Shown here piece after piece: positions 30,161-33,666 of a stretch of 64,000 bases of DNA (position 1 is the first letter of the stretch; each line of letters starts with the position of its first letter). Location: assembly GCA_013823945.1 (NCBI GenBank), contig PNMZ01000002.1:372001-436000 (forward strand), given 5' to 3'. The notes beneath the pieces were generated by a model. That model had not been told where the DNA came from, did not search any database, and was given only the letters and a program-made list of their open reading frames with translations. Position numbers and translations under genes: made by a program. The DNA is from a bacterium. Its GTDB lineage: Bacteria > Armatimonadota > Fimbriimonadia > Fimbriimonadales > Fimbriimonadaceae.

Positions 30161-30292
30161 CTGGCCGGATAGAGAAAATATTGCAATCGTGCTAACGGAG
30201 CGCAGGAGAATGGGGTAGAACTAGACAGTCGTCTACGCTGCCCGGACAGGGATGCGGGAGTGGCGCTGGTAACAAGGACGAAACGACAGAAA

Positions 30293-31381
30293 ATGAACAC
30301 AATTTCAATCAAATTGGGCGAACGTGAATTTGTGCTGGACCGCGAGAAGGCCGAGGCGGCCCAGGCGGGTAAGCAAGTGATTAATGGTCGGGAGACGATG
30401 GCCTTCAATTTGCTGCCGCTCAAATACACCTGGGCCTATGAGTTGTATCGCAAGATGAAGGCGAATCACTGGGAGCCCGAAGATATTCCGATGCAACGGG
30501 ATGTTGAGCAATGGCGCAGTGACACGGCCCTCAGCGACGTTGACCGTTGGGTTATTCGGATGGCGATTGGCTACTTTAGCGCGGCCGAAGGAATTGTAGG
30601 TGACAACATTCTCCACGTTGTTCGGGAAGAGGTGACGGCTTCGGAGCTGAAACTCGTCTTGGGTCGCCACGCTCATGAAGAGAATATCCACGCCGACAGT
30701 TTGCTGTACATGATTTCTAGCTTGGGGATCAATCCGCATGAATGCGAGGCGATGTTTGAAGACGTAGCCACGATTAAGCGGAAGAACGAGTTTCTGACCC
30801 GGGTGAGCCACGACCTACGCCGGGATATGGATCTCACTCAGACATCAGAAAAGCAGAAGCTGGCGAAGAACATTTTCATGTTTGGTCAGTGCATGGAGGG
30901 CACACAGTTTTATGGTCTGTTCGGGATGGTTCTGAGTTTGTATCGGCAAGGAAAGATTCCCGGAATTGGGCAGATGTTCCGCTACACCTTGCGCGATGAG
31001 AGCAACCACATTGAGGTGTTCCGACAACTCCTGATGGAATTGGTGGACGAGAACCCGGACATTTGGACGGAGTCATTCAAAGTGGAACTTGTCGAAACGA
31101 TGAAAGAAGCGGTTGCGTTGGAGAAAGAGTTCATCAAGGACTGCTTGCCGGTTGCGGCGGTTGGTCTGAGTGCCGAAGAGTTCATGCAATACATTGACTA
31201 CATTGCGGATCGCCGTCTCGAAGGGTGCGGATTGCCGGAGTTGAATCCTGGGATTCAGAATCCGTTGCCGTGGCTCGCCGAGTTGATGGACATGAAGAAG
31301 GAACAAAACTTCTTTGAAGGCCGGGTGACCGAGTATCAGAAGTCATCGGCTCTGGCTTCGGTCAGCGACGACGAGTTGTGA
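30293..31381 (+). CDS. nrdB: Class I ribonucleotide reductase small subunit, Ic-like (no radical Tyr)
   Basis: The 362-residue beta subunit (start at 30293) generates the oxidant needed by NrdA to make deoxyribonucleotides. Metal ligands are Glu99 in FSAAEG, Glu130 and His133 in EENIHADSLLYM, Glu in FGQCMEGTQF, and Glu/His in RDESNHIEVF. In E. coli NrdB the radical Tyr is four residues after that His; here the position is Leu137. The first ligand is Glu rather than Asp. Both fit subclass Ic enzymes, which use a Mn/Fe centre. The partner nrdA is not in this window. Confidence 0.88.
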   Translation: MNTISIKLGEREFVLDREKAEAAQAGKQVINGRETMAFNLLPLKYTWAYELYRKMKANHWEPEDIPMQRDVEQWRSDTALSDVDRWVIRMAIGYFSAAEGIVGDNILHVVREEVTASELKLVLGRHAHEENIHADSLLYMISSLGINPHECEAMFEDVATIKRKNEFLTRVSHDLRRDMDLTQTSEKQKLAKNIFMFGQCMEGTQFYGLFGMVLSLYRQGKIPGIGQMFRYTLRDESNHIEVFRQLLMELVDENPDIWTESFKVELVETMKEAVALEKEFIKDCLPVAAVGLSAEEFMQYIDYIADRRLEGCGLPELNPGIQNPLPWLAELMDMKKEQNFFEGRVTEYQKSSALASVSDDEL

Positions 31382-31390
31382 CGTTAGGAT

Positions 31391-31412
31391 GGGGTGAGTG
31401 GAAGCTCACCCC
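31391..31412. repeat. Perfect 8-bp palindromic hairpin between nrdB and the RAYT-like gene
   Basis: GGGGTGAG, loop TGGAAG and CTCACCCC form a perfect stem-loop 10 bp after the nrdB stop. No T tract follows. It may be a terminator of nrdB or a relic REP-type palindrome of the adjacent transposase-like gene. Confidence 0.5.
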
Positions 31413-31423
31413 AATCGCAATTT

Positions 31424-31903
31424 ATGGGCAAGTGGGAAAACTTCAATATCTGGCGGGGGCGGTTGCCGCATTGGCGAGCGGATGATGTCCGATACTACGC
31501 CACATTTCGCCACCGGCGCCCTCTCACCGACATGGAGCAGTGGCTATTGTATCAGCGTCTCATGCGGGCGCAACGGCGAAAATTTGATTATCTGATTCTG
31601 TGTGTCCTTCCAGAAAAGACGGAAATGATCTTTACGGTCAATACAGGGCTAGATGATGAGCCGTACGAGCTAAGCGATGTGATCGAAAAGGCAAAGCGGC
31701 AAGCGGGGAACCAAATCATCAAGAAAAGTGAAGAACGGTGGCCCCCGTTCTACGGCGAAAGCTATGACCGGATTATTCGAGACGAAGCGGAGTTTGAAGC
31801 AACCTGGGAATCTATTTTGAGTTCTCCGGTTGATAACGAACTCTGCGAAGATCCGGACGAGTGGGAAACACTATTTGTGCCGGACGCTCCGGATACTATT
31901 TAG
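31424..31903 (+). CDS. REP-associated tyrosine transposase (RAYT)-like protein lacking the HUH motif
   Basis: The 159-residue ORF (ATG at 31424) lines up with RAYT/Y1_Tnp proteins across its length. WRGRLPHWRADDVRYYATFRH matches the usual GRLPHW-x-YFVTFR opening. FDYLILCVLPEKTEMIFTV sits where VVMPNHVHVLF is expected. LSDVIEKAKRQAGNQI is the recognition helix region, and GESYDRIIRDEAEFEATWESILSSPVDNEL matches the catalytic-Tyr helix. Both histidines of the HUH motif are absent (EKTE instead of NHVH), so metal-dependent nicking should be lost. It may be a domesticated DNA-binding protein. This is a by-eye assignment. Confidence 0.62.
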   Translation: MGKWENFNIWRGRLPHWRADDVRYYATFRHRRPLTDMEQWLLYQRLMRAQRRKFDYLILCVLPEKTEMIFTVNTGLDDEPYELSDVIEKAKRQAGNQIIKKSEERWPPFYGESYDRIIRDEAEFEATWESILSSPVDNELCEDPDEWETLFVPDAPDTI

Positions 31904-31929: not shown

Positions 31930-33666
31930 ATGGATTTTCGGATTGAAGTGCTGGGAGAGTTTCGGTTGATCGATCTGCGCACTCAGTCAGAAATCCCGAT
32001 TCGGAGTTATCGAACTGTATTAGTTGCCCTTGTTTTGAATAGAGATCGGTTAGTGCCCCGGCGCGAACTGGAGGTCAGCATTTTCTCAGACGGCGATTCC
32101 ATTGCCGCACAGAATCGAATGCGCGTCGCCCTCTTTCGATTGCGAAAAGTGATCGGATCGGCTCTTGTTGAGTCAGGCGGAATGGTGGGGTTGAACTCCG
32201 GTTTGGTTGAATGTGATTTATGGGAAGCGGAAGACCATTGTCAAGATTTTCGCGATGCACCGGACGTAGAATCGCAACTTTCGAGCCTCATCGCTGCATC
32301 CCAATTGAGTCTCGTGCGTGGGGCTCTCTCCTTACAAAGAACGGCACCAGAATTTGCGCGGCAGATTTTGAGCGATTTGAAGATAGCTGTTCGGCTGGCG
32401 GCCGAATCTGGAAAGCATGAGGAAGGGTTTCGATTAGCCTTATCCGGATTGAGGTTATCTGCGATTGAAAATAGTGAAGGATTGAAGGAGTTCTTTTCTG
32501 CGGCAATTGACTTTGCAAACGAGAATGGCGGTGGGCCGTCTCTGTCCGAGCAAATTGAATTGGCCCTAGGTGGCATTGATCGGCTGAGCGGTAAAGAACG
32601 AACAAACCTCAAGTTGTTGCGATCTGGGTCAGCAAAAAAGGACTCGGTCAATACGCTAGAGCGTCGATTTCTTATTGAATTGCTCCAAATTGGCATAAGG
32701 ACGTATCCAGAGTTAATTCGCCAACTCTTGGCCAAGCCAGAAGCACTTCCATTTGCTGGACAAAACCCGGCAATGATGATCGTTCTTCTGGAGCAAGTTG
32801 TTGGTGAATTGGAACCAGGCGATGAAGTTCAGGAACGGTGTTTGGCGCGTTTAGTGGGTTTACGGGCTTGGCAGAATGACGCTCCAGGGGTCTTGCGTGA
32901 TGCGCCCGCCTTGTTAAATTCAAGCAAGAATCCCCTGGTGCTTCGGGCAACATGGAACTACGTGAGCCTGGCGCATGCCCTTTCGCGAAATTGGCAGCAG
33001 GCGGATAACGCATTAGCGAAGACGGAAGAGTTTGCGCGTGAATCGGGCGACGAGATTGATCTTTTGAGTGTCCAAGGAACTCGGGCGTTCTATCTTCTCC
33101 ATCAAGGCAAGTACAAAGATTCTTTGCACCAATATGATCTTTGCTTGGATGCACTCCGGCGGATTGATCACCCCCGAGCGGCCCTTGATTATGCGGTTGC
33201 CAATGGTTACCGGGCCATGATTCCGGTTTATGCCGGAGAGTGGGAAGCTGGAATGGAGGCTTTGACAAAAGCCATTGCTATCCGAAAGGGATTGAATCCA
33301 CCTTGCCAACATAGTCTCCTATCGTCGGCCCGGAGTCTTTGCGGAATAAAGACAGATCGCTGGGAAGATGTTTTGTCGGATATGGTTGAGGCTCTCCGGG
33401 AGGCATTTAATGGCTCGGTAGCCCGAGACCAGATATTGACATTGGAGTTTTTGGCGCGAGTGCTATACGAACTTGACCAAGGAGAATCTCCGATAAGCAT
33501 CTGTGAGAGGACAGACCAGTGGCGCAGGGATTGTCATTTGCCCCGAAGTGAGGCAGAAGATTCATTGGTGCGGATGATTGGCCGATCCGGTAAACCGCTC
33601 GATGATATCCAACCAGAAGTCTTGGCTCGGCATGGAATTCGGGTGTTGAGACGTATTTTAGCTTAG
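31930..33666 (+). CDS. SARP/BTAD-type transcriptional regulator with TPR-like domain
   Basis: The 578-residue protein starts with an OmpR-like winged helix: MDFRIEVLGEFRLIDL, RSYRTVLVALVLNRDRLVPRRELEVSIFSD and NRMRVALFRLRKVIG. That is the SARP DNA-binding layout. About 450 residues of helical repeats follow (for example NPLVLRATWNYVSLAHALSRNWQQADNALAKTEEFA and QGKYKDSLHQYDLCLDALRR), typical of BTAD/TPR signal-sensing domains. No NB-ARC ATPase is present. The target genes are unknown. TAGAAT ends 5 nt before the ATG. Confidence 0.8.
   Translation: MDFRIEVLGEFRLIDLRTQSEIPIRSYRTVLVALVLNRDRLVPRRELEVSIFSDGDSIAAQNRMRVALFRLRKVIGSALVESGGMVGLNSGLVECDLWEAEDHCQDFRDAPDVESQLSSLIAASQLSLVRGALSLQRTAPEFARQILSDLKIAVRLAAESGKHEEGFRLALSGLRLSAIENSEGLKEFFSAAIDFANENGGGPSLSEQIELALGGIDRLSGKERTNLKLLRSGSAKKDSVNTLERRFLIELLQIGIRTYPELIRQLLAKPEALPFAGQNPAMMIVLLEQVVGELEPGDEVQERCLARLVGLRAWQNDAPGVLRDAPALLNSSKNPLVLRATWNYVSLAHALSRNWQQADNALAKTEEFARESGDEIDLLSVQGTRAFYLLHQGKYKDSLHQYDLCLDALRRIDHPRAALDYAVANGYRAMIPVYAGEWEAGMEALTKAIAIRKGLNPPCQHSLLSSARSLCGIKTDRWEDVLSDMVEALREAFNGSVARDQILTLEFLARVLYELDQGESPISICERTDQWRRDCHLPRSEAEDSLVRMIGRSGKPLDDIQPEVLARHGIRVLRRILA

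Follow-up and report, generated by a model that had tools for sequence, protein, structure and literature searches.

A RAYT-derived gene downstream of nrdB

The window, a stretch of 64,000 nucleotides from a contig of the bacterial family Fimbriimonadaceae, carries a short gene about 40 bp downstream of nrdB for which we coined the name dRAYT (dead RAYT). The gene and its surroundings comprise the following features:

30260–31381, forward strand: nrdB, the upstream neighbour of dRAYT, with synteny at genus level only
31390–31413, no strand assigned: perfect 9-bp inverted repeat (6-nt loop) in the gap from nrdB to dRAYT, resembling a terminator or a REP
31424–31903, forward strand: dRAYT, a dead RAYT-derived protein of 159 aa, open frame with an ATG start
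31439–31519, forward strand: N-terminal module and beta-1 (residues 6–32), with F7, W10, P15-H16-W17-R18-A19 and Y24 invariant in 55/55 family members
31610–31627, forward strand: former HUH block P-E-K-T-E-M (residues 63–68), with K65 and E67 at the His places
31742–31783, forward strand: beta-4 region PPFYGESYDRIIRD (residues 107–120), the tetranucleotide-contact places of TnpAREP
31811–31813, forward strand: codon of Ser130, at the catalytic-Tyr place (Y115 of 4er8, by alignment)
31823–31825, forward strand: codon of Ser134, at the metal-ligand Asn place (N119 of 4er8, by alignment)

A longer frame from a GTG at 31394 is unlikely, because the starts of relatives lie at the ATG or close by. 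The gene is intact; an earlier note on this DNA had described it as of single copy in the window, and it is the sole match in the window's genome at E ≤ 0.001. The inverted repeat at 31390–31413 was seen at the same place only in L008, a 97% relative, and not in the other upstream stretches compared. Directly 3′ of dRAYT, positions 31930–33666 encode a SARP/AfsR-like protein of 578 aa that matches TPR weakly; its identity is 86% in the closest relative and 35% in L006, and it is therefore fast-evolving.

Profile and structure searches established the relationship to RAYTs that the earlier note had proposed. The NCBIfam model REP_Tyr_transpos (NF047646) matched dRAYT with an E value of 4.4e-9, though at 36.4 bits this lies below the curated RAYT/TnpAREP cut-off of 80 bits, and the same model matched 41 of the 55 family members. 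A Pfam search of dRAYT gave no match, and nothing credible in the family. The AlphaFold2 model built from 55 sequences reached a mean pLDDT of 85.4 and a pTM of 0.80. Residues 1–19 fell under a pLDDT of 50, so that their role is unreadable from the model, although they belong to the best-conserved parts. Foldseek placed 4er8, TnpAREP with a REP hairpin, first among structures (E 5e-7, TM 0.63), as did VIA (Z 13.2, rmsd 2.8, 129 residues aligned), so the predicted model has the Y1 class 2 fold. The IS608 group came second in VIA (Z 10.1; group Z 9–10); VIA also returned ribosomal protein S6 and, at Z values of at most 8.9, Thg1, hits that we take as a common structural arrangement. The 4er8 structure is reportedly the subject of a 2012 paper, and domesticated bacterial transposases are said to be that of a 2017 paper. 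dRAYT thus belongs, as a diverged member, to the lineage of REP-associated tyrosine transposases (RAYT/TnpAREP).

The former active centre and the contact regions

Residues were paired by an hmmsearch of the dRAYT family profile against the TnpAREP chain 4er8 (E 0.048). In this alignment the HUH of 4er8 (VLPEHMH) falls on VLPEKTE of dRAYT, whose LPEKTEM spans 31607–31627, and Y115, N119 and W99 pair with Ser130, Ser134 and Tyr114 of the SYDRI motif, respectively. Y---NP is described as the Tyr motif of class 2, with N119 assigned as a metal ligand (PMC6006769), and in the E. coli protein Y115F serves as the catalytic mutant (PMC8266576). Among the 55 aligned family members, His is found at position 65 in none and at position 67 in one, and Tyr130 and Asn134 occur in none. 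Copies from 22 further genomes contain a single His65 and no His67, Tyr130 or Asn134. No copy of the 77 full-length ones thus holds both His, and the Tyr and Asn of Y---NP are missing from all 77. All four residues are present in 17 of 17 canonical relatives, rows that were picked as full-length and HUH-bearing.

These alignments confirm the loss of the HUH histidines and show that the whole H-H-Y-N cutting centre is gone from dRAYT. They also correct one assignment: SYDRIIRD had been read as the catalytic-Tyr helix, but its Tyr114 pairs with W99, and the nucleophile Y115 pairs with Ser130 and is itself lost. Because Tyr114 is replaced by Phe in 16 of the 55 relatives, its hydroxyl is dispensable.

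In TnpAREP, the tetranucleotide is described as being contacted by beta-1, the surroundings of beta-4 and the C-terminus, and Q95, D100 and R104 are named as contacts also fairly conserved in group 3 (PMC8266576). At the R104 place, R119 of dRAYT is present in 77/77 copies; D115 occupies position 100, where the 4er8 chain itself has E, in 76/77; and E112 occurs in 77/77. The Q95 place is Pro107 in dRAYT, so the first of these three contacts has not been kept, and K82, the bulge contact of TnpAREP, aligns with the variable R92.

We compared mean column identity between 43 dRAYT and 17 canonical rows, both thinned to <70% identity. dRAYT exceeded the canonical rows in residues 6–20 (0.80 versus 0.48), beta-1 (0.72 versus 0.42) and the beta-4 region (0.71 versus 0.49), and fell below them in the Tyr helix (0.33 versus 0.44) and at the four catalytic positions (0.29 versus 1.00, the latter partly by the choice of rows). 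Overall mean pairwise identity in the compared sets was 0.48 for dRAYT and 0.38 for the canonical rows. L143, L145, L149, L151, L154 and L066–L069 (fragments, short or more distant) were left out of the canonical set, as were L001, L072 and L074, which had no match; alignment A1 excludes L014, L053 and L064, in which dRAYT is cut at contig ends. Relative to the canonical rows, the N-terminal and beta-4 regions have gained conservation.

Distribution, selection and gene neighbourhood

Our genomic survey found dRAYT in 80 of 85 Fimbriimonadaceae genomes and in all 32 genera, with one copy per genome. Among good-quality genomes of the family (at least 90% complete, at most 5% contaminated) it is present in 70 of 70, and the five family genomes without it are 68–89% complete. 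Among named records the closest is that of Armatimonadetes bacterium Uphvl-Ar1 (97% identity), and the other four named matches are Fimbriimonadaceae MAGs. A whole-species exact-peptide scan, which detects close relatives only, returned nothing beyond Fimbriimonadaceae and Uphvl-Ar1, so that more distant dead relatives may exist in other phyla; dRAYT was not found in viral contigs (pattern search), plasmids or phages. RAYT matches outside the family were weaker only. The search for dead relatives covered 20 further loci, of which 18 are from other families and 2 from the family genome G118, plus nine earlier ones, drawn from a larger number of weak matches. By pattern, 17 of the 20 carry the HUH; L145 and L151 are fragments, and L149 lacks the full HUH. 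L149 (G118:C5) is a second, separate RAYT within the family, in which MPDHVQ replaces the HUH and YIRANP is kept, perhaps another inactivation.

Phylogenetic analysis (a quick tree) recovered the dRAYT family as one clade against the 17 canonical rows (SH-aLRT 100), within which a clade of its own (support 98) unites the window's genus, represented by seven full-length rows. Across the five closest pairs tested (identity at least 89%), dN/dS by three methods ranged from 0.018 to 0.123: 0.018–0.033 for the window and L008, 0.032–0.040 for L010 and L011, 0.058–0.075 for L036 and L038, 0.043–0.064 for L052 and L054, and 0.058–0.123 for L022 and L023. L050 and L057 gave 0.055–0.214, and many dS values among dRAYT pairs are saturated. 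No close pair comes near a ratio of 1, which indicates purifying selection. Of 39 rows, 28 have their closest dRAYT in a member of their own genus (mean 1.6 and at most 9 in shuffles). The correlation between dRAYT and DnaK distances in 51 genomes is weak (rho 0.12; 67 of 2000 permutations as high), and deep transfers of dRAYT are therefore possible; nearest neighbours in the two proteins agree in 22 of the 51, and single-reference identity correlations with DnaK (rho 0.05–0.11) are uninformative.

The gene order around dRAYT differs among lineages. The earlier note had pointed to nrdB as the preceding gene; this is true of the window, and in relatives the synteny is confined to the window's genus, with nrdB upstream in 6 of 59 loci (2.3 kb off in L102). 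In this genus dRAYT sits between nrdB and leuA, and glnA together with nrdB lies upstream in the window, L075, L076, L077 and L103. Elsewhere the neighbour is often glnB, which encodes P-II: it occurs in 24 of the 59 fetched loci, immediately preceding dRAYT at no more than 200 bp in 16 and at no more than 260 bp in 17, and several junctions are ATGA or TGATG overlaps. The gene hslV is often found 5′ of glnB. On the other side, 18 of the 75 genomes in which both genes could be placed have dnaK 3′ of dRAYT, in the same orientation and no more than 1.2 kb away, and two of these, the diverged G036 and G002, belong to the window's genus; the two genes are on different contigs in 43 of the 75. Placement between glnB and dnaK is commoner and probably older, the nrdB link being local and confined to the genus, and we infer an ancestral order glnB-dRAYT-dnaK that was broken in many lineages.

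In L038, L052, L079, L080, L091, L101 and others, a TTGAGT/ACTCAA-like inverted repeat separates dRAYT from dnaK. Ahead of dnaK it resembles the HspR (HAIR) operator, and dRAYT and dnaK are therefore probably not one unit. In some lineages the ATGA/TGATG coupling to glnB hints at a connection to nitrogen signalling; since it is absent in others, the window's included, dRAYT probably does not need P-II.

Repeats that might serve as REP partners were also surveyed. A 464-kb sample, made up of the window and a further 400 kb from its genome, held no GTAG/GGAG-tagged repeated hairpin family. A G-rich palindrome family, CCCTCCCC-N-GGGGAGGG, was observed (e.g., L161 9384–14850 and L169 11674–11743), with 59, 56, 43, 34, 20, 3, 0 and 0 copies in eight genus genomes, the 59 being those of the window's genome, and 0 for a control pattern. 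As a target of dRAYT it was rejected, being missing from two of the eight genomes, both of which keep the gene.

A probable non-cleaving RAYT descendant and its known relatives

Collectively, family-wide conservation, purifying selection, monophyly and loss of the whole active site point strongly to a kept non-catalytic RAYT fold rather than decay. We consider it probable that a family-ancestral RAYT was domesticated, lost its cleavage centre, kept its fold and now acts as a non-cleaving binder of a folded strand. The domestication of this class 2 Y1/HUH RAYT would date to the common ancestor of the Fimbriimonadaceae or earlier, probably at a place with glnB and dnaK as neighbours. The cleavage centre (both His, the nucleophilic Tyr and the metal-ligand Asn) has been lost entire, while the fold and the nucleic-acid-holding parts would have been kept. 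Conservation of the contact regions suggests that dRAYT may bind DNA or RNA: the beta-1/beta-4 face and the N-terminal arm would still hold a folded single strand, with a hairpin plus a short 5′ motif as the putative ligand. It may act by occupying a structured site, as a regulator, nucleoid factor or RNA factor, a housekeeping or regulatory role being most likely. The earlier note had favoured a kept DNA- or RNA-binding role over recent decay; the second half of that view stands (70/70 genomes, low dN/dS), while the binding role is what the sequence conservation suggests.

The leading alternative, which we regard as possible but unlikely, is that the fold is kept for a protein–protein role, for example with P-II, and that nucleic-acid binding has been lost. 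P-II proteins work via protein partners, dRAYT starts −4 to +9 nt from the glnB stop in 14 of the 17 P-II-adjacent loci, and the conserved, poorly modelled N-terminal F..W.GRLPHWRA could be a partner-binding arm. However, no locus of the window's genus is among the 24 with P-II, and the residues at the tetranucleotide-contact places are invariant or nearly so.

Very unlikely, in our judgement, is that dRAYT has remained enzymatic through a new active site assembled from its conserved acidic residues (E67, E82, E88, E104 and E112). Four residues, E82, E88, E104 and T66, hardly vary in dRAYT, unlike in its canonical relatives; yet Tyr130 occurs in 0/77 copies, the His pair is never complete, and no family match points to another enzyme. 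More remote still is a dead transposase retained to restrain active RAYTs and the REP populations of the same genome. HUH-bearing RAYTs do exist in some family genomes (L065 in G020, L150 in G118), but 61 of 80 genomes have no second RAYT-like match at E ≤ 0.001 besides dRAYT and its pieces, a Y1_Tnp search of the window's genome gave nothing over the cut-off, and two of the eight genus genomes keep dRAYT without the CCCTCCCC-GGGGAGGG palindromes. A decaying RAYT remnant, to which the lost catalytic residues and a stop-bearing N-terminal dRAYT fragment in L102 (G003:C1:527167-527244, a duplication remnant some 0.9 kb 5′ of the intact copy) might point, has a negligible probability and is refuted by the conservation data, namely a frame open in all 77 full-length copies, presence across the family and dN/dS well under 1.

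The non-cleaving binder would be of interest beyond this family. A gene that is near-universal in a family and without the means to cleave is a natural experiment parting binding from cutting, and makes the reason why bacteria keep RAYTs a testable question. Decidedly speculative is the bolder version, in which dRAYT is a clade-defining, transposase-born hairpin-binding regulator, translationally coupled to P-II in many lineages, that recognises structured sites in DNA or RNA and links nitrogen status to gene expression; it would then be a RAYT lineage that benefits its host purely through binding. A literature search with incomplete journal coverage found no description of dRAYT in print.

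RAYTs are described as domesticated, housekeeping-like transposases co-opted for some host benefit (PMC8266576). dRAYT resembles TnpAREP/RAYT (4er8, NF047646) in predicted fold, element order, single copy and housekeeping-like behaviour, and differs in lacking the HUH, the catalytic Tyr and the Asn ligand, in its own F..W.GRLPHWRA N-terminus and ERxPPF insert, and in being a family-wide orthologue with no recognised REP partner. Because these defining catalytic features were sought and are missing, we do not file dRAYT as a RAYT. With the TnpA proteins of IS200/IS605 (IS608, ISDra2) it shares the Y1 fold (VIA Z 8–10); those are active mobile transposases with an HUH and Y---Q active site, whereas dRAYT lacks HUH and Tyr in 77/77 copies and has neither their mobility nor their multiple copies, occurring once per genome and in no plasmid, phage or viral contig. 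The nearest canonical relatives found are HUH-bearing RAYTs of the same phylum (L065, L135–L153), which share with it the LPHW motif, a TYFVTFR-like beta-1 and an ESYDRIIRD-like motif (E-S-Y-D-R-I-x-R). They fall outside the dRAYT branch, and the 17 rows chosen from them all keep H-H-Y-N. Against these relatives, dRAYT is a dead descendant whose likely way of working is to bind as RAYTs do.
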